IMG/VR virus record: IMGVR_UViG_3300035698_005305
Location: 1-40,399 of that record
Length of the DNA stretch: 40,399 bases
Strand: one strand, 5' to 3'
From: a virus
Under the pieces are notes generated by a model. That model made no database searches. It had not been told where the DNA came from and saw only the letters and a list, made by a program, of their open reading frames with translations. A program made the translations under genes and the position numbers. Shown here one piece after another: positions 1,457 through 31,668 of the stretch. Positions within the stretch are counted from its first letter, which is position 1; every line of letters begins with the position of its first letter.

Positions 1457-1464
1457 TATTTATA
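1457..1464 (-). promoter_or_regulatory. T4-type late promoter (TATAAATA) for the tail fibre gene
   Basis: Exact TATAAATA on the minus strand, 67 bases before the fibre start and overlapping the stop codon of the endonuclease gene. The sequence is palindromic (TATTTATAAATA), so a plus-strand copy also exists, but no gene follows it on that strand. Confidence 0.7.
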
Positions 1465-2233
1465 AATAAAGCTGAATTGATGATCTACTAATCATCCAAC
1501 CCTTGTATTTTGAACGTCCTTTCTCTAATGCAGATCGCATGGATCTACTATTCATTCCACGTTTTTCACAAAATTGCTTCAATAAAGTTATATTATCATA
1601 TTTCACTCCTTCGGGTGAAATTAAACAATATTTATATTTTTGACTTACTCTTTCTTTTATGCTATATACTTTTCTCAGTGATTCGCTCATTCTTCTTCGA
1701 ATAACATCACTTCGTTTGGTTCCATAAGCATTTTTATTACCTCTGTTAGCTATACTCATCTTTTTTCTAGTTTCTTCACTTGCCTTTTTGCCTCTTTTAA
1801 CTATACTCATCTTTTTTCTAGTTTCTTCACTTACCTTTCTACCTCTGTTAGCTATACTCATCTTTTTTCTGGATTCCACAGTATGTTTTCTACCAGAACT
1901 TAATTCTTTAAACAGTTTCCTAAGCTCAATTTGTCGTTCCTTTGATAAATTATGAAATGCCATTCCGCCATCACCACCACTCGTGATGTTATAACCAATA
2001 TTTCTATCACGTGCGCCTAATTCAGCAATCCAAAAGACTTCCCTTTCGTTCAATGTAATTTTGTCTTTTATTCCTTTTTCGAGAATCTCTCTATCAAAAT
2101 TATTTCTTCTGTATTTTTTAATAGCCTGTTTTAAAATTTTACCCGAACCTAAATATCCATCATCTGCAGACGTGTTGTGTTGTCCGACGTAAATCTTACC
2201 ATTAATTAAATTTGTAGTTTTATATATTATCAC
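1460..2233 (-). CDS. Free-standing GIY-YIG homing endonuclease with NUMOD3 repeats
   Basis: A 257-residue protein. The N-terminal ~95 residues match the GIY-YIG nuclease fold: I3-Y4, Y15-V16-G17, then a GYNITSGGDGG stretch typical of phage seg-type enzymes. Residues ~110-170 hold NUMOD3-type DNA-binding repeats (SEETRKKMSI...RG) with a 17-residue period, visible in DNA as a 51-base tandem repeat. The product is expected to cut DNA of related phages lacking the gene and so spread itself. It starts with GTG at 2233, chosen because GAGAGG lies 6 bases upstream and the GIY-YIG core needs this start. It sits between the gp7-like gene and the tail fibre gene. Its leader carries the structured RNA element also found before the two Vsr-like endonucleases. 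Confidence 0.9.
   Translation of the reverse strand: MIIYKTTNLINGKIYVGQHNTSADDGYLGSGKILKQAIKKYRRNNFDREILEKGIKDKITLNEREVFWIAELGARDRNIGYNITSGGDGGMAFHNLSKERQIELRKLFKELSSGRKHTVESRKKMSIANRGRKVSEETRKKMSIVKRGKKASEETRKKMSIANRGNKNAYGTKRSDVIRRRMSESLRKVYSIKERVSQKYKYCLISPEGVKYDNITLLKQFCEKRGMNSRSMRSALEKGRSKYKGWMISRSSIQLYL
1751..1890 (-). repeat. 51-base tandem repeats encoding NUMOD3 motifs
   Basis: The word TATACTCATC recurs at 1751, 1802 and 1853, a 51-base (17-codon) period, with the first two units nearly identical. Encoded units read like SEETRKKMSIVKRGKKA. This is in-frame expansion of the DNA-binding repeat within the GIY-YIG gene. Confidence 0.85.
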
Positions 2234-2239
2234 TTGATG

Positions 2240-2323
2240 CCTCTCTACAGGTTAAATTAGGTGAATTAATAGAAGTAATCTTTGGTAGAGCAAAGAAACG
2301 ATTTGCAAATCGATGTCCTTCTA
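2240..2323 (-). promoter_or_regulatory. Structured leader RNA of the GIY-YIG gene: three-way junction with SD-masking pseudoknot (copy 3)
   Basis: Read on the minus strand. P1 pairs UAGAAG (2323-2318) with CUUCUA (2275-2270). Junction GACA(U) follows, then P2 CGAUUU/AAAUCG (2312-2299), junction UUU, and P3 CUUUG/CAAAG (2295-2280). The P3 loop is CUCUAC (2290-2285), and AUUA then leads back to P1. The P3 loop is exactly complementary to GUAGAG at 2248-2243, which overlaps the SD (2246-2240) of the GTG start. The junction strands are identical to those in the leaders at 21638-21716 and 31525-31602, while the stems differ in sequence but keep pairing. The likely role is translational control of the endonuclease. 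No known riboswitch class was recognised. Confidence 0.75.
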
Positions 2324-2351
2324 CTAAATTGTTTATATACTAATCTAAATG

Positions 2352-10096: not shown

Positions 10097-11353
10097 TTAA
10101 AATCGTTCAAATACTATATCTCTTTCAGTACCTAATACTGGTATAGAAACATAAATCGCGTTTATACCAGACGCACTTGTACATATATTTATACTTGTTG
10201 CGCATGTCATCATTGCAGACGCACCAAATGAATCAAGTGGTGAATTGTGTTCGGGTGTTATTCCCGACATAGGAACCGCGGATGAAGACATATTAGAATA
10301 GAAATCCGCCGATAAAGTATCTATATTTGGTTCAAATGTAGATGATATACTTGTAAAATTCGAATTCATATTCGAAATCGATGCACTTGTTAATAAATTT
10401 TCTGGTGTATCCGGCATCGCGGCGGCACTCACAACATCTATTAACGAAAGATCTATTCCTTCCATGGCACCATTATTAAGTATTGATATCGCAGACGTAT
10501 TCACACACGCAGTATTCATATAAAATTCATTACCGTTAAATAATGGTTGACAATCCGTTGGTGTTACTGTTGGTTGTCCAGCAGTATCGATATCATCAGA
10601 AAGAGCTTGTAAATTAGCAGTGTTCGCTTCACCATTCGCATCTATAATCCCAGTTAACCCCAAACTATCTAACATATCAGCTGGAATAGAATTACCACCA
10701 CGAGGCCAATTTAGAATATCGACAAAAATCCAGAAAGGAAATGTCATTCCCGTAAATACGCCCGTTGTTGGAATTGCTGTTCCTGTAGAAACAATAGGTG
10801 GTATAAAATTACCAATCAATCCCATGAAAATATAATTAGATAACATCTCATAATAATCATCCGGACCTTGCATATAACCAGCCGCCGCTAATGCGAAAAA
10901 TGTAGCCCAACAAGGAATACCCAACGCAGGCATTACTGGAAATAATGCCACTCCACTCCCAGTTAAAGTCGCGGGCGCGATTGATGATTTTATTTTAACA
11001 TCCATGGGTGCATTTAACCATTTTCCAATTTCGATAAACAATTTAGCGTGTATTTCCGGTGACATCGGAATTGGCATTGATGATTTTACCGCATTAACTA
11101 ATGCATCTTTTAAATCATCCTTATCTGGTATTTTTACATCGATATTACTAAACGCAACACCCGGAACCGGAGTTGGAGCAGTCGCGACCACACCAATTGA
11201 GGGATAAATTGGTAATAATAATGTCAGCTTTTGTATATTCATATACATAAAAACGGCATACGCAATACCCGTATAATATCCCTCGATAGGATCTGGATTT
11301 AATGCTACTTGCGCCGCGATATTAAATTTCAAAAGAGTACTCAATATAATCAT
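10097..11353 (-). CDS. Uncharacterised hydrophobic structural protein next to the spike gene (418 aa)
   Basis: The frame stays open further upstream to 11458, but the start is placed at the ATG at 11353 because AAGGAA precedes it and the longer version would overlap the end of the spike gene. The protein begins MIILSTLLKFNIAAQ and is rich in Ala, Pro, Ile and Met. It has hydrophobic stretches near residues 20-60 and 140-215 (including WATFFALAAAGYM and PFWIFVDILNW), and a Ser/Thr/Asn-rich C-terminal half. No family is recognised. It lies directly downstream of the gp5-like spike gene and upstream of another unknown, so a role in the central spike or hub, perhaps a membrane-active ejected protein, is possible but unproven. 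Confidence 0.6.
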   Translation of the reverse strand: MIILSTLLKFNIAAQVALNPDPIEGYYTGIAYAVFMYMNIQKLTLLLPIYPSIGVVATAPTPVPGVAFSNIDVKIPDKDDLKDALVNAVKSSMPIPMSPEIHAKLFIEIGKWLNAPMDVKIKSSIAPATLTGSGVALFPVMPALGIPCWATFFALAAAGYMQGPDDYYEMLSNYIFMGLIGNFIPPIVSTGTAIPTTGVFTGMTFPFWIFVDILNWPRGGNSIPADMLDSLGLTGIIDANGEANTANLQALSDDIDTAGQPTVTPTDCQPLFNGNEFYMNTACVNTSAISILNNGAMEGIDLSLIDVVSAAAMPDTPENLLTSASISNMNSNFTSISSTFEPNIDTLSADFYSNMSSSAVPMSGITPEHNSPLDSFGASAMMTCATSINICTSASGINAIYVSIPVLGTERDIVFERF

Positions 11354-19984: not shown

Positions 19985-21631
19985 TTATAATATCATATAC
20001 TTCAATGACCCAGAATCGTATATTCTATATATTTTACGTTCTAACATAATTTCTCGTTCAGTTTTATTTTTATCGTAACCCAGTTTAATTAACTCGGATT
20101 TCCTATATTTAAACCTGTTTTCGCGAATACCATTAACAACATAATAATAATTTGGTTTTGTTTTATGCATTAATTTAAATCCTAATTTTTCATATAATAC
20201 TCCTTTTGACCACGATCTATCGGCATAACTAATAACTCGAATGGGATTATATGTTCTGGAAAAATACTTAAATAATTTAGATGCCCCACCAACTACTGTT
20301 GTATTCAATTTATTACAAAATCTCAATAATTCATAATAGTCATCTTTGGATGTTTGACCTAAATTCTTTCTCAACCCACCAAACGTCATTAACGATACCA
20401 ATACACCATTATAATATAATCCACATCTAATTTTCGATATGCTACTTCCCTGCAAATGATTATCTATTAAAAAATCCCTCGATGTTTTGTAATCAACTTC
20501 TTTTATTATGCATTTTCTCGCGTATATTCTTTCGGAATGCCCGATGTGATTCATAATTCTCGATTTAACTATATCCTGCTTATACATCCAATCATCCTCA
20601 TAAATATGGATTAATTGAATTCCTTCTCGTTCGCATAAATCAGTCTTATTTAAGTGATAATCATTTGATTTATTCACTTCATTGTGCCAATATACTCCAT
20701 TATATTCAAATGCTAATTTTAACTCCGGTAAATATATATCCAATTCTAATGGAGCAATCAAATTTCTATTATTAATTTCAATTTTTCCTTTATAATGAGT
20801 TTCAATAAAATTCAAAACCCCCTTTTCCGCGATTGATGTTAAATGTTCAAACGAGTTGATAGGAGTACAATTAGTACATATATCTTGGTTTTTGTCAATT
20901 CTAAAAACCATAGTATAATACATTATCTCAAAATTCCTATTACATTTTGGACAATTTCCTATTATATCATATATTACATTCGAAAAATAATTTTTAACAC
21001 GGGTATTAATAAATGTCTTATTTTGACTTTTCAACATATCAAAAAGCCGATTATTTCGTCTATCATTCAACATTTTTGAGTTTTTCGGAATCGACGATGA
21101 ACAATACACACCATAATTGTTAAACATCGTAAATGCCTTTTTTTCTTTTATCTCAGTTAACTTTGATATATTATCTATACCATATTTTTCTATAACAGTA
21201 TTTTTGACTTTATTCTGAATTACGGAAGAGTGGAATGGACTTACCACACCATATCTATTTACACAAGTCTTTTTTATCCGTGCGGAATTTCTATAATTCT
21301 CGTCACCATATTTTTTTCTTTTACTATTCTTTATTTTTGTGGTTATTTTTATTCGATCCACATCCGTTTTATTCTTCCATGTCTCGGTAACTTTTCGTTT
21401 ATGATTTTCGTCTTTACTTGAACATTCTCTATGATATTCAGAATATCCCTTTGTCGCATTGATAAATGTAGTTTCTTTTCCACAAACCACACAAATACCT
21501 TCGCCATCTTTTCTTAAATAGGTATCATAATATTTCTTGGGGGTTTGGTTGTGTACAGGAATAACGTGATTTTTGATAAAAGTGTTAGTTCTTATATATT
21601 TTGTATCTATACCGCAAATTAAACATTTCAT
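19985..21631 (-). CDS. Free-standing Vsr-like (EDxHD-type) homing endonuclease
   Basis: A 548-residue protein. The N-terminus has a CxxC zinc-binding module (MKCLICGID...H...H) and a second (ICVVCGKET...C). The middle contains repeated DNA-reading units (RYGVVSPF, KYGIDNISK, NYGVYCSSS). The nuclease core at ~280-360 reads LELDIYLPELKLAFEYNGVYWHNE and then IQLIHIYEDDWMYK, the Vsr-like PD-(D/E)XK pattern of I-Bth0305I-type enzymes. The C-terminal ~170 residues (LRFCNKLN, VVGGASKLF, ISYADRSWS..LYEKLGFK) look like the Mom/GNAT-like domain often fused to such enzymes; that comparison is inference. It lies between tube and sheath genes with its own sigma-70-like promoter, structured leader and AGGAGG. 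Confidence 0.85.
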   Translation of the reverse strand: MKCLICGIDTKYIRTNTFIKNHVIPVHNQTPKKYYDTYLRKDGEGICVVCGKETTFINATKGYSEYHRECSSKDENHKRKVTETWKNKTDVDRIKITTKIKNSKRKKYGDENYRNSARIKKTCVNRYGVVSPFHSSVIQNKVKNTVIEKYGIDNISKLTEIKEKKAFTMFNNYGVYCSSSIPKNSKMLNDRRNNRLFDMLKSQNKTFINTRVKNYFSNVIYDIIGNCPKCNRNFEIMYYTMVFRIDKNQDICTNCTPINSFEHLTSIAEKGVLNFIETHYKGKIEINNRNLIAPLELDIYLPELKLAFEYNGVYWHNEVNKSNDYHLNKTDLCEREGIQLIHIYEDDWMYKQDIVKSRIMNHIGHSERIYARKCIIKEVDYKTSRDFLIDNHLQGSSISKIRCGLYYNGVLVSLMTFGGLRKNLGQTSKDDYYELLRFCNKLNTTVVGGASKLFKYFSRTYNPIRVISYADRSWSKGVLYEKLGFKLMHKTKPNYYYVVNGIRENRFKYRKSELIKLGYDKNKTEREIMLERKIYRIYDSGSLKYMIL

Positions 21632-21637
21632 TTAAAC

Positions 21638-21716
21638 CCTCCTACTAGGTAAATAAAAAGAGGTAATCCCTACTCAGTAGGTTTCGGGAAATGGTAGCTG
21701 ACCACTGTCCCTCTTT
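21638..21716 (-). promoter_or_regulatory. Structured leader RNA of Vsr-like endonuclease: three-way junction with SD-masking pseudoknot (copy 1)
   Basis: Minus strand. P1 is AGAGG/CCUCU (21714-21710 with 21663-21659, extendable outward by two A-U pairs), then GACA(G), P2 UGGU/ACCA (21704-21692), UUU, and P3 CCC/GGG (21688-21686 with 21670-21668), then AUUA. The P3 loop contains CCUACU (21681-21676), exactly complementary to AGUAGG at 21646-21641, which overlaps the SD AGGAGG (21643-21638). The same loop strand can instead pair locally with GUAGG in the loop, giving two mutually exclusive states. Junction strands match the other two endonuclease leaders while stems differ by paired changes. 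Confidence 0.82.
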
Positions 21717-21724
21717 TATTATTT

Positions 21725-23789: not shown

Positions 23790-25373
23790 TTAATTGAAAC
23801 ACCCAAGATTCCAATCAAATCCCCATTCATCCACACCCGCATCCAGTTCCATAACCACGGGTGGAAGTGTTTCATCGTCATCAGAGACTCTATATTTACC
23901 ATCGACTGATTTAATTCCAAGATCTCTATCATCAAAATGTTGGGTTATCAAGAAATAAATTGCCCAAATTAAAGAAGTAACCGCGTCATCATGTTCAGTA
24001 GCAGATGCTTTGAACACATCTGGACGTACCTCTTCATAGAGTGATAATTCGTATACTGTTCTTCGATCAAACAATTCTAACCACCCACTTTCCAAATATC
24101 TTTTTAATAACATATTTCCAGTGAGCTTTGATTTTCGCGTGGATCTAATACCGATGCTTTGTTTTCTTTCATCACAATTCAATATTTTATCGTATTCATA
24201 ATCCCACCAAATCGCGTTCACGACTTCGGCACCAACATCATTATTCTCAACCATCATATACGCACCATTATAATACTCGGAAACTGATATACATACTTGA
24301 GCAAAATCATACGGAGATATCATATTATTTCGGTAAATAGCAACCTGTTTAATATCATGTTCACCTAATATCTTTATGATTTGAATAGTCGAAAAATCAC
24401 TCCCTATACCTTTAGAACTATCCACACCAAGTATATAAGTTGCATTAGGAATCGGACGTTCGTAAATATGTAAATAATCTTTCATTGATAATTGTATAGG
24501 TTCCGTTGTACTATCACCTATTTTCTCTAACATCCCACCTTCAATTAAAGTGGAACTCGAACCTATGAATTTTGCCGCATACTCTTGATTCCATTTGACT
24601 ATACCAATATCTCGGATAACCTCATCTCTCCATGCTTCATCGCGACCCGGAACTTCATCCCAATTAATTTTTATTGGTCTAAAGTTATTATTCCCTTTAA
24701 CCGCATCATTATATATGTGGTAAAACCGATTCAAACCATGTGGAGTACTCACCACGATTATTTTAGCTGTTTTACTCGAAGAAATGGTTGGATAAACAGA
24801 AGACATGAAATCTTCCACGATATTCGATGGTACAAAAGCAAACTCATCCAATAAAAGTAATGAAATGGATTCTCCGCGGATCGCGGAAGAAGCAGTCGAA
24901 GCAGATATTATTCTCACTCCGTTCTCCAATTCTACTTGAATTTTACTCCACCCACCTTCTTTCACACCTTGTTGTAACCACAATGGTAGTTCTTCATATG
25001 CCATTTTGATTCTTCTAAGAATTTCTTTGGCTGTTTTTTCTTTATTAGCAAGCACCGCGATATATTTATCTTCATTGAAAATCGCATACCAAACCATATA
25101 AATCGTGGATATGGTTGTTTTTCCGATCTGACGCGACGATAGGCAACATATATGTCTTTTTTTGGGATCATCTTCGACAAATGCTTTCAACATTCGTTTC
25201 TGATATTCATGAAGAGGTATTAATTGTTTACCCTCATCGATATTAACAATATAGAAATAATTCTCTGCAAAATAGATAATATCTTCTTTACATCGAAACC
25301 ACTCCTTTAATATATCCGGTGGGTATTCAATTTGTTCGCCCTCTCCTCTGAGTTTTGGATTACCATTATGCAT
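23790..25373 (-). CDS. 17: Terminase large subunit gp17 (packaging ATPase-nuclease)
   Basis: A 527-residue protein (T4 gp17 is 610). ATPase: adenine-side motif LHEYQKRML, Walker A SSRQIGKTT (residues 79-87), Walker B LLLLDEFAF with D176-E177, and coupling motif VVSTPHG. Nuclease: a first acidic motif LGVDSSKG, a middle motif MVENNDVG, and a last EHDDAVTSL, the RNase H-like headful nuclease. It docks on the portal and pumps and cuts DNA. The start ATG lies inside the end of the upstream ATPase-only gene (8-base overlap ATGCATAA), implying coupled translation. The weak upstream GGGAAT suits coupling. Confidence 0.94.
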   Translation of the reverse strand: MHNGNPKLRGEGEQIEYPPDILKEWFRCKEDIIYFAENYFYIVNIDEGKQLIPLHEYQKRMLKAFVEDDPKKRHICCLSSRQIGKTTISTIYMVWYAIFNEDKYIAVLANKEKTAKEILRRIKMAYEELPLWLQQGVKEGGWSKIQVELENGVRIISASTASSAIRGESISLLLLDEFAFVPSNIVEDFMSSVYPTISSSKTAKIIVVSTPHGLNRFYHIYNDAVKGNNNFRPIKINWDEVPGRDEAWRDEVIRDIGIVKWNQEYAAKFIGSSSTLIEGGMLEKIGDSTTEPIQLSMKDYLHIYERPIPNATYILGVDSSKGIGSDFSTIQIIKILGEHDIKQVAIYRNNMISPYDFAQVCISVSEYYNGAYMMVENNDVGAEVVNAIWWDYEYDKILNCDERKQSIGIRSTRKSKLTGNMLLKRYLESGWLELFDRRTVYELSLYEEVRPDVFKASATEHDDAVTSLIWAIYFLITQHFDDRDLGIKSVDGKYRVSDDDETLPPVVMELDAGVDEWGFDWNLGCFN

Positions 25374-26049
25374 TTATTTCGTATTCCCGATTAAAAGCAT
25401 CATATTTAACTTTAAAATACTCAAAATCATCTCTATACCGAAACATAGATACTCCGGTTCCTACAGAAAATATCTTCGATCTGCGATTTGCTTTAATGAC
25501 TGGCAACGCACACTCCAAAAAGAGTGTTTTTTCTGAACATGGAGCGAAACAATATTCATCTAAGAAATAATTTATTGATGCATCACCTTTTAATTGTGAA
25601 AATATACTTTTAGCGGTGATACTAATTCCATTCCAAAATTCCAAAGAATATTTATTCCGAACACAAAAAGTATCATATTCGTTATCAGAACCCATCATTT
25701 TATATAACTCATAACAAAAAGATTCTATAAGATCTCTAACTTGTTTAAGAATCAATTCTGCATTCTTCATTTTATAACTAAGGATTACTGTGTTACCACC
25801 ATTATTTAACACATTCCACGCGCACGCAATTACAATAAGTACAGATTTGCCTACTTGGCGAGATGCTTCAATATCTATATTAGATTGGGTTTTATTAGAT
25901 GCAAATGATCTCAAAATCGTTTTTTGATAATCATATAACTTTATCGATTTCTGATCACGATCCGCATTAGTGCAATAAAAATATTTTTCTGCGAAATAAA
26001 CAATATCGTGCTTACATTTACAAATTTCTCTCTCGTATTCTGTTTTCAT
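25366..26049 (-). CDS. ATPase-only terminase paralogue immediately upstream of gp17
   Basis: A 227-residue protein from the ATG at 26049, chosen because AAAGGAATTGAAG precedes it; a Met at 26085 has no ribosome site. It reads like gp17's N-terminal half: CKHDIVYFAEKYFY against gp17 CKEDIIYFAENYFY, KLYDYQKTILRSF against LHEYQKRMLKAF, Walker A ASRQVGKS (K68), Walker B NYFLDEYCF (D164-E165), and a coupling-motif-like FSVGTG near 195. It ends about where the gp17 nuclease domain would begin. The catalytic residues appear kept, so it may be an active second ATPase, a motor regulator or a diverging duplicate. It overlaps the preceding gene by 32 bases and gp17 by 8. Confidence 0.82.
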   Translation of the reverse strand: MKTEYEREICKCKHDIVYFAEKYFYCTNADRDQKSIKLYDYQKTILRSFASNKTQSNIDIEASRQVGKSVLIVIACAWNVLNNGGNTVILSYKMKNAELILKQVRDLIESFCYELYKMMGSDNEYDTFCVRNKYSLEFWNGISITAKSIFSQLKGDASINYFLDEYCFAPCSEKTLFLECALPVIKANRRSKIFSVGTGVSMFRYRDDFEYFKVKYDAFNREYEINA

Positions 26050-26377
26050 CTTCAATTCCTTTTTTTGATTCAATAATATATTCATGGACTAAATTAATTA
26101 CATATTCTTTTGTTTTATGTTTAACATTAACACCTGTAATTGTCGAAAAATATTCTCGCGAAAGTTTACTCTCTTTGCTACATAGCGCGGAAAGCAATTC
26201 CACTTCATCTTTTTCTTTTATAAACGTGATGAATTTTTTAAACCAACCCCGTTGTTGTTCTAAGATTTCATTTCGGTTTAACTTACCAAAAAAACCTTTT
26301 TCATAGTATTTATCAAATACTTCACGAAAAATATCTACGTCTTTGGTTTCTAATAAATAATATTCTTTAAAACGCAT
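26018..26377 (-). CDS. Uncharacterised small protein between gp16 and terminase paralogue (119 aa)
   Basis: I do not recognise this protein. It starts MRFKEYYLLETKD, is highly charged and helical throughout (FDKYYEKGFFGKLNRNEILEQQRGWFKKFITFIKEKDEVELL), and ends with a Glu/Arg-rich tail. The frame is real by context: it begins 5 bases after the gp16 stop and its 3' end overlaps the next gene by 32 bases, as in tightly packed phage operons. A part in DNA packaging is possible from position between small and large terminase genes only. Confidence 0.65.
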   Translation of the reverse strand: MRFKEYYLLETKDVDIFREVFDKYYEKGFFGKLNRNEILEQQRGWFKKFITFIKEKDEVELLSALCSKESKLSREYFSTITGVNVKHKTKEYVINLVHEYIIESKKGIEDENRIRERNL

Positions 26378-29802: not shown

Positions 29803-31519
29803 CTAATCCATTACAAATTTTAAAGATCCGGAATCGTATATTCTATATATCTCTCGGTCTAACATTATTTGATGTTCCGTTTTATTAGAGTCATATCCCT
29901 GTTCAATTAACTCGGATTTACGATATTTAAACCTATTTTCCCGAATACCACCAACCACATAATGATAATTTGGGTTGGTTTGGTCACCTAACACAAATCC
30001 CAATTTTTTATATAGTTTCCCGACAGACCAAGAACGATCCGCGTAACTAATTACTCGATGGGGAATATGATTTTTCATAAAATGAGCAAATAACCTAGAA
30101 GCACCCCCAACAACAGAATAATTTAATTTGTTACAAAATCGCAATAATTCAAAATTACCTTCTTTAATATCATAACCCAAATTCTTTCTCAATCCACCAA
30201 ATGTCATCAACGAAATCAATTCTTCATCGTAAAATAAACCATACCTAATTTTTGATATACAATTACCCTGAGTATGATTTTCGTTTAAAAATATACTCGA
30301 CTCTTTCGCGACTACTTTTCTTATTTCACACTTACGCGCATATATCTTTTCGGATTTTCCCAATAAATTTAAGATCCTAGATTCAATTATATTTCGTTTA
30401 TACATCCAATCATCCTCATAAATATGGATTAACTGAATTCCTAGTTTCTCACATAATTCTGTTTTGGTCTTATGATATACATTCGGTTTATGTAATTCAT
30501 TATGCCAAAATAACCCATTAAATTCAAATGCCAATTTTAATTCGGGCAAATAAATATCTATCTCAAGTGGACTAATTATCTGTTTTGTATTAACAGTAAC
30601 TTCACCATAGTAATTTTTCTGTATAAAATCAACAACATCCTTTTCTGCAAAAGAAGTCCCGTTTAAAAAAGGTTCACATATTTGACATTTTAATTTTCTG
30701 TTATTAATCAATCGCAATCTAAATAACTGAACTTGTACATCAAAAATTTCTCCGCATTCACATCTACACGTAACAATACCACGTTCATAACTAATCACAT
30801 CAACACCGATATTTCTTGCATTTTCTTTAAAATGGGACATATGCATTCCGTTAAGTGTGTTTTTAATCTTATTTAATACCATATTAGATTGCGCTGGATA
30901 TTTAGTTCCGTATTTACCAAGATTAGTATTAATTTGCACGTTGTTTAACTTTTTCGTTTTTCATTGGATTATCAACGCCATACTTTTCCAATAGTGTTTC
31001 TTTGGTTTTACCTTGCGCGGATTCCAACTGAAACACATTTTCTACTCCATATTTTTTTAAATTGGTGTTTTTTATCTGTTCAATATTATTCACACTGTTA
31101 TATTTTTTCTTTTTCTTTTCCGCGGATTCAACATAAAACCCTTCTTTTTGAAAATACGACTCCACACCATAACGGTCTAAATTAGTATTCTTCTGCTTTT
31201 CGATTGATTCCGGATTATACATATTATGATAATAACCAGTTTTTTTAAAATACGTTTGTCTTGCTTTTTCTTTGGTATCACTCGATGAACAACTAACACA
31301 ACAATATTGTCTATAACCATTAGATGGATTTATAAATTTAGTCTCATTCTCGCAACCCTTTCTATTACAAATATTATCTTCTGATTTTTTGATATATTCA
31401 TCGTAATATTCTTGCGCGGATAAATTATGTATTTTTTTAACATGTAATTTAAAAAATGTCTTTGGTGTATACATCGTATATTCATTACAAATATGACAAA
31501 AAGTAGCTTTTTTATTCAT
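29803..31519 (-). pseudogene. Vsr-like homing endonuclease split by a one-base frameshift
   Basis: Two frames together equal one protein of about 571 residues, paralogous to the endonuclease at 19985-21631 (548). The first (31519-30929, 196 residues) has the Cys-rich N-terminus and repeats RYGVESYF, KYGVENVF and KYGVDNPM. The second (30939-29803) has LEIDIYLPELKLAFEFNGLFWHNE, IQLIHIYEDDWMYK and the C-terminal LRFCNKLN, GGASRLF, YADRSWS domain. At 30931-30932 the minus strand reads GCA AAT T AAT ACT AAT. Dropping one T restores ANNTNLGKYG, matching the repeat consensus NTNLxKYG. The second frame has only a GTG without a ribosome site. Inactivation, sequencing error, or recoding are the options. 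Its promoter, structured leader and AGGAGA remain intact. Confidence 0.85.
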
Positions 31520-31524
31520 AACAA

Positions 31525-31602
31525 TCTCCTATTTAGATCAAAAAAGAAGTAATCCCTACTCAAATAGGTTTCGGGAAACGGTCATGACTCCGCTGTCCTT
31601 CT
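31525..31602 (-). promoter_or_regulatory. Structured leader RNA of split endonuclease: three-way junction with SD-masking pseudoknot (copy 2)
   Basis: Minus strand. P1 is AGAAG/CUUCU (31602-31598 with 31549-31545), then GACA(G), P2 CGG/CCG (31592-31579), UUU, and P3 CCC/GGG (31575-31573 with 31556-31554), then AUUA. The P3 loop contains CCUAUUU (31568-31562), exactly complementary to AAAUAGG at 31534-31528, which overlaps the SD AGGAGA (31530-31525). Relative to the leader at 21638-21716, P1 changes a G-C to A-U, P2 changes U-A to C-G, and the loop and SD partner change together. Confidence 0.82.
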
Positions 31603-31608
31603 GTATAT

Positions 31609-31637
31609 ATTATATATTATTGTCCGTACATAGTCAA
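31609..31637 (-). promoter_or_regulatory. Near-consensus sigma-70 promoter for split endonuclease
   Basis: On the minus strand TTGACT (31637-31632), exactly 17 bases, TATAAT (31614-31609). The predicted start near 31602 is the first base of P1 of the structured leader. It lies immediately downstream of the capsid terminator, so this gene is insulated from late capsid transcription. Confidence 0.85.
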
Positions 31638-31642
31638 CAAAA

Positions 31643-31668
31643 AAAGGGGATTCAAAAGAATCCCCTTT
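31643..31668 (-). terminator. Intrinsic terminator after the major capsid gene
   Basis: GGGGATTC (31646-31653) pairs with GAATCCCC (31658-31665) around an AAAA loop, followed on the minus strand by seven T. It sits 28 bases after the capsid stop. Confidence 0.88.

Follow-up and report, generated by a model that had tools for sequence, protein, structure and literature searches.

A conserved pseudoknot RNA predicted to control translation of mobile endonuclease genes in phages

We describe a cis-acting RNA, about 65 nt long, that is predicted to control the translation of mobile endonuclease genes in phages. A three-way-junction core (helices P1, P2, and P3) would present a loop strand to the 6 to 8 nt covering the SD just downstream. 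When this pseudoknot forms, ribosomes would be kept off and the gene would be off; when the core is open, the SD would be free. Binding at the conserved junction, whether of a small molecule or of a widespread protein, may shift the balance. Covariation among the copies makes the pseudoknot architecture very probable. Translational repression in cis, which we infer from the architecture as we do switching, is likely, and control by a ligand or protein, with its presumed binding at the junction, stands at even chances. The complete statement, from the architecture through the ligand or protein step (the weakest), is one that we favor with some reservation.

The window analyzed is the whole stretch of 40,399 nucleotides of IMG/VR record IMGVR_UViG_3300035698_005305 (positions 1 to 40,399). 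It contains three copies of the element, all on the minus strand, labeled W1 (21.6 kb), W2 (31.5 kb), and W3 (2.3 kb); labels of the form L001 or G017x denote loci on other viral contigs. With these three, 19 distinct copies were found in viral contigs by pattern scans of IMG/VR, by covariance models R1 (built on 13 copies) and R2 (17 copies), and by whole-record and protein-guided searches. Permutations of the loop-SD pairing, P1, and the local hairpin were run on 18 copies, L276 having joined later. The set of 19 leaves out identical copies (L008, equal to L001; L078, L080, and L081, equal to L077; L083, equal to L082; and the L084 copy equal to L079b), cut-down remnants (L079, positions 120 to 158, and L084, positions 10507 to 10545), antisense copies (L182 to L185), and pattern matches failing R1 (L002, L005, L069 to L074, L076, and L085, plus 34 of 36 loci newly turned up by a further pattern scan). 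L075b was included despite its gene lying past the contig end. The L079 remnant consists of the 5' part only, and the same contig also holds an intact copy; the two together suggest that the element both spreads and decays.

In W1, the two strands of P1 lie at positions 21711 to 21717 (5' strand) and 21656 to 21662 (3' strand) and enclose the GGACA junction strand with hairpin P2 (21691 to 21710). The 5' strand of P3, UCCC (21686 to 21689), pairs with GGGA (21670 to 21667), which is overlapped by the sequence GUAGG (21673 to 21669). Between the P3 strands lies the loop strand CCUACU (21676 to 21681), the predicted pseudoknot partner of AGUAGG (21641 to 21646), which covers the SD and ends 9 nt before the ATG. 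The gene that follows (19985 to 21631, minus strand) encodes a Hef-like homing endonuclease of 548 amino acids with a DUF7487 match, and its relatives are annotated as homing endonucleases.

The second copy, W2, spans 31545 to 31602 (P1, P2, P3, and the loop strand CCUAUUU at 31568 to 31562) and scores 74.1 bits with R2, W2 being in the training set of that model. Its SD-side strand, AAAUAGG, lies at 31528 to 31534, and a promoter-like TATAAT (31609 to 31614) stands immediately upstream. Between the preceding gene and W2, there is a strong terminator-like hairpin on the minus strand (31640 to 31668; AAAGGGGATTC/GAATCCCCTTT and then a T-run). The endonuclease gene below W2 (29803 to 31519, minus strand) is divided between two overlapping open reading frames (30929 to 31519 and 29803 to 30939) of 196 and 378 amino acids, which are in different frames and overlap by 11 bases. 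A frameshifted copy, a decaying copy, and programmed frameshifting are candidate explanations. Elsewhere on the minus strand, a shorter second terminase-like reading frame (25366 to 26085), with a weak Terminase_6N match under the Pfam cutoff, lies directly upstream of the full terminase frame (23790 to 25373).

W1 and W2 have in common GGACAG, UUUCCCGAAACC, and GAGUAGGGAUUAC, flanked by complementary strands. The pattern TTTCCCGAAACCN{8,38}GGGATTAC, common to both, has two matches in the window and none in 100 shuffles. Single-sequence folding energy was unremarkable in four stretches (z scores of -1.13, -0.36, -1.76, and +0.13). The divergent third copy, W3 (2265 to 2328, minus strand), has P1, P2, a P3 of UCUUUG/CAAAGA, and a 6-nt loop, CUCUAC (2290 to 2285), that matches the SD-side strand GUAGAG (2243 to 2248). 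Its score rose from 22.3 bits with R1 to 35.8 bits with R2 (E = 6e-8), although W3 was not in the R2 training set; the rise came once P3 was part of the model. Position and strand also fit, as W3 precedes a third endonuclease-like gene (1460 to 2233, minus strand; GTG start), which has NUMOD3 motifs and looks GIY-YIG-like by eye.

Support for the individual helices differed. In every one of the 18 copies tested, P1, the closing helix, has 3 to 8 contiguous bp; none of 20,000 permutations was as good, and all six pairs show changes on both sides. The same holds for three of the four pairs of P2, a short hairpin in which one G-U pair is conserved. P3 joins UCC(C), directly 5' of GAAA, to (G)GGA, directly 5' of UUAC. 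Compensatory changes affect two of its four pairs, in one sequence each (L075b, GCC/GGC; G017x, UCCU/AGGA), and L152 has lost one base from each side. P3 is wholly different in W3 and in L276 (GGUUAGUG/CACUAACC), with pairing kept, and in both copies the ordinary minimum-energy fold is the proposed P1+P2+P3. Taken jointly, 91.8% of the P1, P2, and P3 cells are paired, and the covariation score is 0.601 versus 0.173 for shuffled data (0 of 500 shuffles; 17 copies). By sequence comparison, then, P1, P2, and the pseudoknot strongly covary; support for P3 is thinner, its changes being few but real.

The predicted pairing between the loop and the SD covaries as well and extends over 6 to 8 bp in all 19 copies, among which the loop strand takes 17 different sequences. 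The strand concerned follows GAAA, except in W3 and L276, where it is the 6-nt P3 loop. Of 133 loop-SD cells, 131 are paired, versus 26 to 59% when the strands are slid against each other. Over 18 copies, the mean score of own pairs was 16.97, compared to 10.43 for permuted pairs, and none of 20,000 permutations reached the former. Where the sequence includes the start codon, the SD-side strand ends 7 to 10 nt before it. All four helices are mutually compatible and yield an H-type pseudoknot with the SD in the second stem. L276, which was found through its protein, has P1, a new P3, a 6-bp loop-SD match, and TATAAATA 11 nt before GGACA.

The core is conserved in an aptamer-like manner, as in riboswitches, and lies in 5' leaders. 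GGACA is invariant (19/19), GAAACC is present in all 17 main-form copies, and the near-invariant strands of the main form (GGACA, UU, GAAA, AGUA, and UUAC) are kept above different genes. The GGA of GGACA could alternatively pair with the same UCC as P3, extending P2. This pairing hardly varies; one of its pairs is broken in L075b, and the UCC is gone in W3 and L276, where GGACA is nevertheless retained. This suggests that GGACA is kept for a reason other than pairing with UCC.

Before any pseudoknot penalty, the closed state, with P1+P2+P3 and the stacking energy of the pseudoknot helix counted, was more stable than the best nested fold by 3.8 to 12.1 kcal/mol across the 19 copies. The usual penalty is several kcal/mol; with that assumed value, closed and nested states come out near balance. 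In most copies, the best ordinary fold already hides some of the SD, which leaves room for simple static repression: the pseudoknot might permanently lower the expression of a harmful endonuclease, with nothing being sensed. Static structures that sequester the SD are known for I-TevI, mobE, and segB (PMC2988022). Such a throttle, however, needs no invariant junction, and the conservation of GGACA and GAAACC leads us to regard it as rather unlikely, if the strongest of the alternatives.

The genes below the element bear on whether a protein locks the pseudoknot. The downstream gene is endonuclease-like in 15 of the 19 copies and belongs to several unrelated kinds. Pfam assigned DUF7487 (W1, W2, and L079b), NUMOD3 (W3), DUF723 (L075a and G017x), and ROS/MUCR (L077). 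By eye only, L139 is DUF7487-like, L004 resembles L075a, L003 and L152 are HNH-like, and L006, L010, L276, and a gene cut short in L082 are GIY-YIG-like. Three of the 19 copies precede genes not recognizable as endonucleases, namely, a RepA_N gene (L009), an HTH gene (L007), and a 32-amino-acid reading frame (L001); the gene of L075b is lost at the contig end. The L009 and L007 copies (positions 267 to 360 and 2554 to 2647) are on Gram-positive-type phage contigs.

In reverse, the link between RNA and gene is weak, as endonuclease relatives mostly lack the RNA. Neither R1 nor R2 gave a credible RNA at any of 36 loci of P0001 relatives (best E values, 0.59 and 0.97); R2 searches of the whole records of 13 of these loci had matches in two, both of them antisense copies. 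None of 80 loci of W3 endonuclease relatives was credible, the sole match (E = 0.8) falling inside a reading frame. Among relatives of the L006 endonuclease, the RNA was present in 3 of 77 (L010 and the new L276 besides the query); a further candidate in this group, L307 (E = 0.16), was not accepted. The scarcity of the RNA among endonuclease relatives implies that RNA and genes recombine. Together with the presence of unrelated genes under one RNA, this favors a shared signal and disfavors autoregulation. We therefore find it unlikely that the junction is the operator of a repressor, whether a host protein or a phage-encoded one like gp32 or gp43, that binds there and locks the pseudoknot. 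The core is conserved, as an operator might be, and T4 has a pseudoknot operator bound by gp32 (PMC3014915), but the hosts are seemingly very different (T4-type and Gram-positive-type phages), so any such protein would need a wide distribution.

The original prediction had placed an on/off switch in the W1 leader, in which CCUAC would pair with the nearby GUAGG in the on state and with the SD in the off state. CCUACU, GUAGG, and AGUAGG are indeed all present on the minus strand, and the W2 leader offers the predicted choice between a perfect 7-bp SD pairing (CCUAUUU/AAAUAGG) and a local CCUAU/GUAGG hairpin with a U-G pair. Of the two pairings, the long-range helix with the SD is conserved and covaries, and its geometry suits translational control; the exclusive local hairpin lacked support as a general mechanism. 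At least 4 bp of this hairpin can form in 13 of the 19 copies, including W1 and W2, and it is part of the W1 minimum-energy fold. Its excess over permutations is modest (47 and 38 of 20,000 with two scores; 18 copies, uncorrected for kinship), and the obligatory match of CC-pyrimidine to the AGG of the SD yields three of its pairs automatically. Homologues that keep one pairing only, which the prediction had named as evidence against itself, do exist: W3, L276, L139, L152, L075b, and L079b keep the SD pairing with hairpins of 0 to 3 bp (in ascending order, 0, 0, 2, 2, 2, and 3 bp). A local competitor is impossible in W3 and L276, where a P3 of 6 to 8 bp closes the 6-nt loop that supplies the SD-pairing strand. 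Moreover, the 3' strand of the hairpin overlaps the GGGA of P3, so that forming the hairpin precludes both P3 and the pseudoknot. Given six copies with the pseudoknot and without the hairpin, the latter can be no more than an auxiliary open form, a role that it may play in the 13 capable copies. As far as the aligned copies tell, the local hairpin is not the conserved mechanism, and we consider an exchange between the two pairings improbable as such.

A 405-kb phage record contains three weaker copies (31.9, 30.8, and 21.5 bits), one of which recurs in a related contig. These antisense copies (L183, L184, and L185, approximately 1501 to 1571; L182) adjoin endonuclease-like genes but are encoded on the other strand. 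Their P3 loop differs, no SD can be seen on their side, and promoter-like sequence is present on either flank. The SD-control model does not cover them. The RNA might instead be a ribozyme that cleaves itself, or an element acting in processing or as DNA, that moves along with the endonuclease and pairs with the SD only secondarily; this is highly improbable. Antisense copies are unexplained by SD control and phage-borne small ribozymes exist (theta ribozymes; PMC10879173), but no Rfam ribozyme family matches, the order P1-P2-P3-pseudoknot does not map on the nested double pseudoknot of the HDV fold, and the SD covariation would be left without a role. CsrA-type GGA sites, ribosomal-protein operators, and an RNA thermometer are further conceivable readings.

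The preferred reading, a leader pseudoknot that represses translation, has parallels in known systems. Riboswitches of the preQ1-I/II and SAM-II types have a compact conserved core and a pseudoknot helix that contains the SD, as predicted here. Unlike them, the present element has no sequence or covariance match in Rfam and precedes mobile genes of phages instead of metabolic genes. Exact promoter-like sites stand before several copies: TATAAATA (8/8), which we take to be the T4 late promoter consensus, 10 to 11 nt before GGACA in L075a, L075b, and L276, and TATAAT (6/6) 9 to 11 nt before GGACA in W2, L001, L009, and G017x. These predicted sites sit at the outer end of P1 or farther upstream, and not inside the structure. 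Along with the terminator-like hairpin before W2, they suggest that the element probably begins the mRNA. In T4-type homing endonuclease leaders (I-TevI, I-TevII, I-TevIII, segB, and Aeh1 mobE), the ribosome binding site is likewise hidden in leader RNA with a late promoter nearby (PMC2988022). There, however, the hiding structures are hairpins, one arm of which is excluded by the late promoter (PMC2988022), whereas here the hiding helix is a predicted pseudoknot from a conserved three-way junction, and the promoter-like sites are upstream of the whole element. The T4 gene 32 leader also uses a pseudoknot in translational control, but that pseudoknot is 67 nt upstream of the start codon and binds the product of its own gene, nucleating binding across the ribosome site (PMC3014915).

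Outside the family, searches returned no credible relative. Rfam 15 covariance models gave no match in the window at the gathering score, no credible match in the W1 and W2 leaders at E values up to 10, and none in 13 related loci at E values up to 0.5. In bacterial chromosomes, the pattern TTCCCGAAACC..GGGATTAC had 56 loci versus approximately 58 computed for chance; one of these, L059, matched R1 weakly (22.1 bits) without GGACA or P1. R2 found nothing in 4 bacterial genomes. With stricter filters and no positive control, it found nothing in 198 genomes from the phylum of a Bacteroidales genome and one match among 299 genomes from the class of a Planococcus genome, inside what appears by eye to be an aldehyde-dehydrogenase-like reading frame. 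Seven whole phage records holding P0001 relatives had no R2 match (stricter filters), and blastn matches of three copies to named phage records covered at most 45% of the query. No such element was found in the literature searched, whose scope excluded preprints and most subscription papers. SD sequestration before phage homing endonucleases is already known (PMC2988022), so this type of control has precedent; within the searched literature and Rfam, the RNA family, the pseudoknot design, and the occurrence above unrelated genes appear new.

As of 2010, PMC3014915 reported no functionally characterized T4 riboswitch and hoped for candidates in related phages. The element described here is a directly testable riboswitch candidate with a defined consensus. 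Tentatively, it might represent a new riboswitch class that travels with phage mobile genes. Such an RNA would have been acquired by unrelated endonucleases and by phage genes of replication type, and the cue that it senses, one of infection or of host state, would be shared by widely differing hosts; we treat this as a possibility rather than an expectation. Homing endonucleases must act while two phage genomes share one cell. If the travelling-riboswitch reading is true, selfish genes would be translated only at the right moment, and unrelated endonucleases, by carrying one aptamer-like RNA, would all be equipped with the same sensor.
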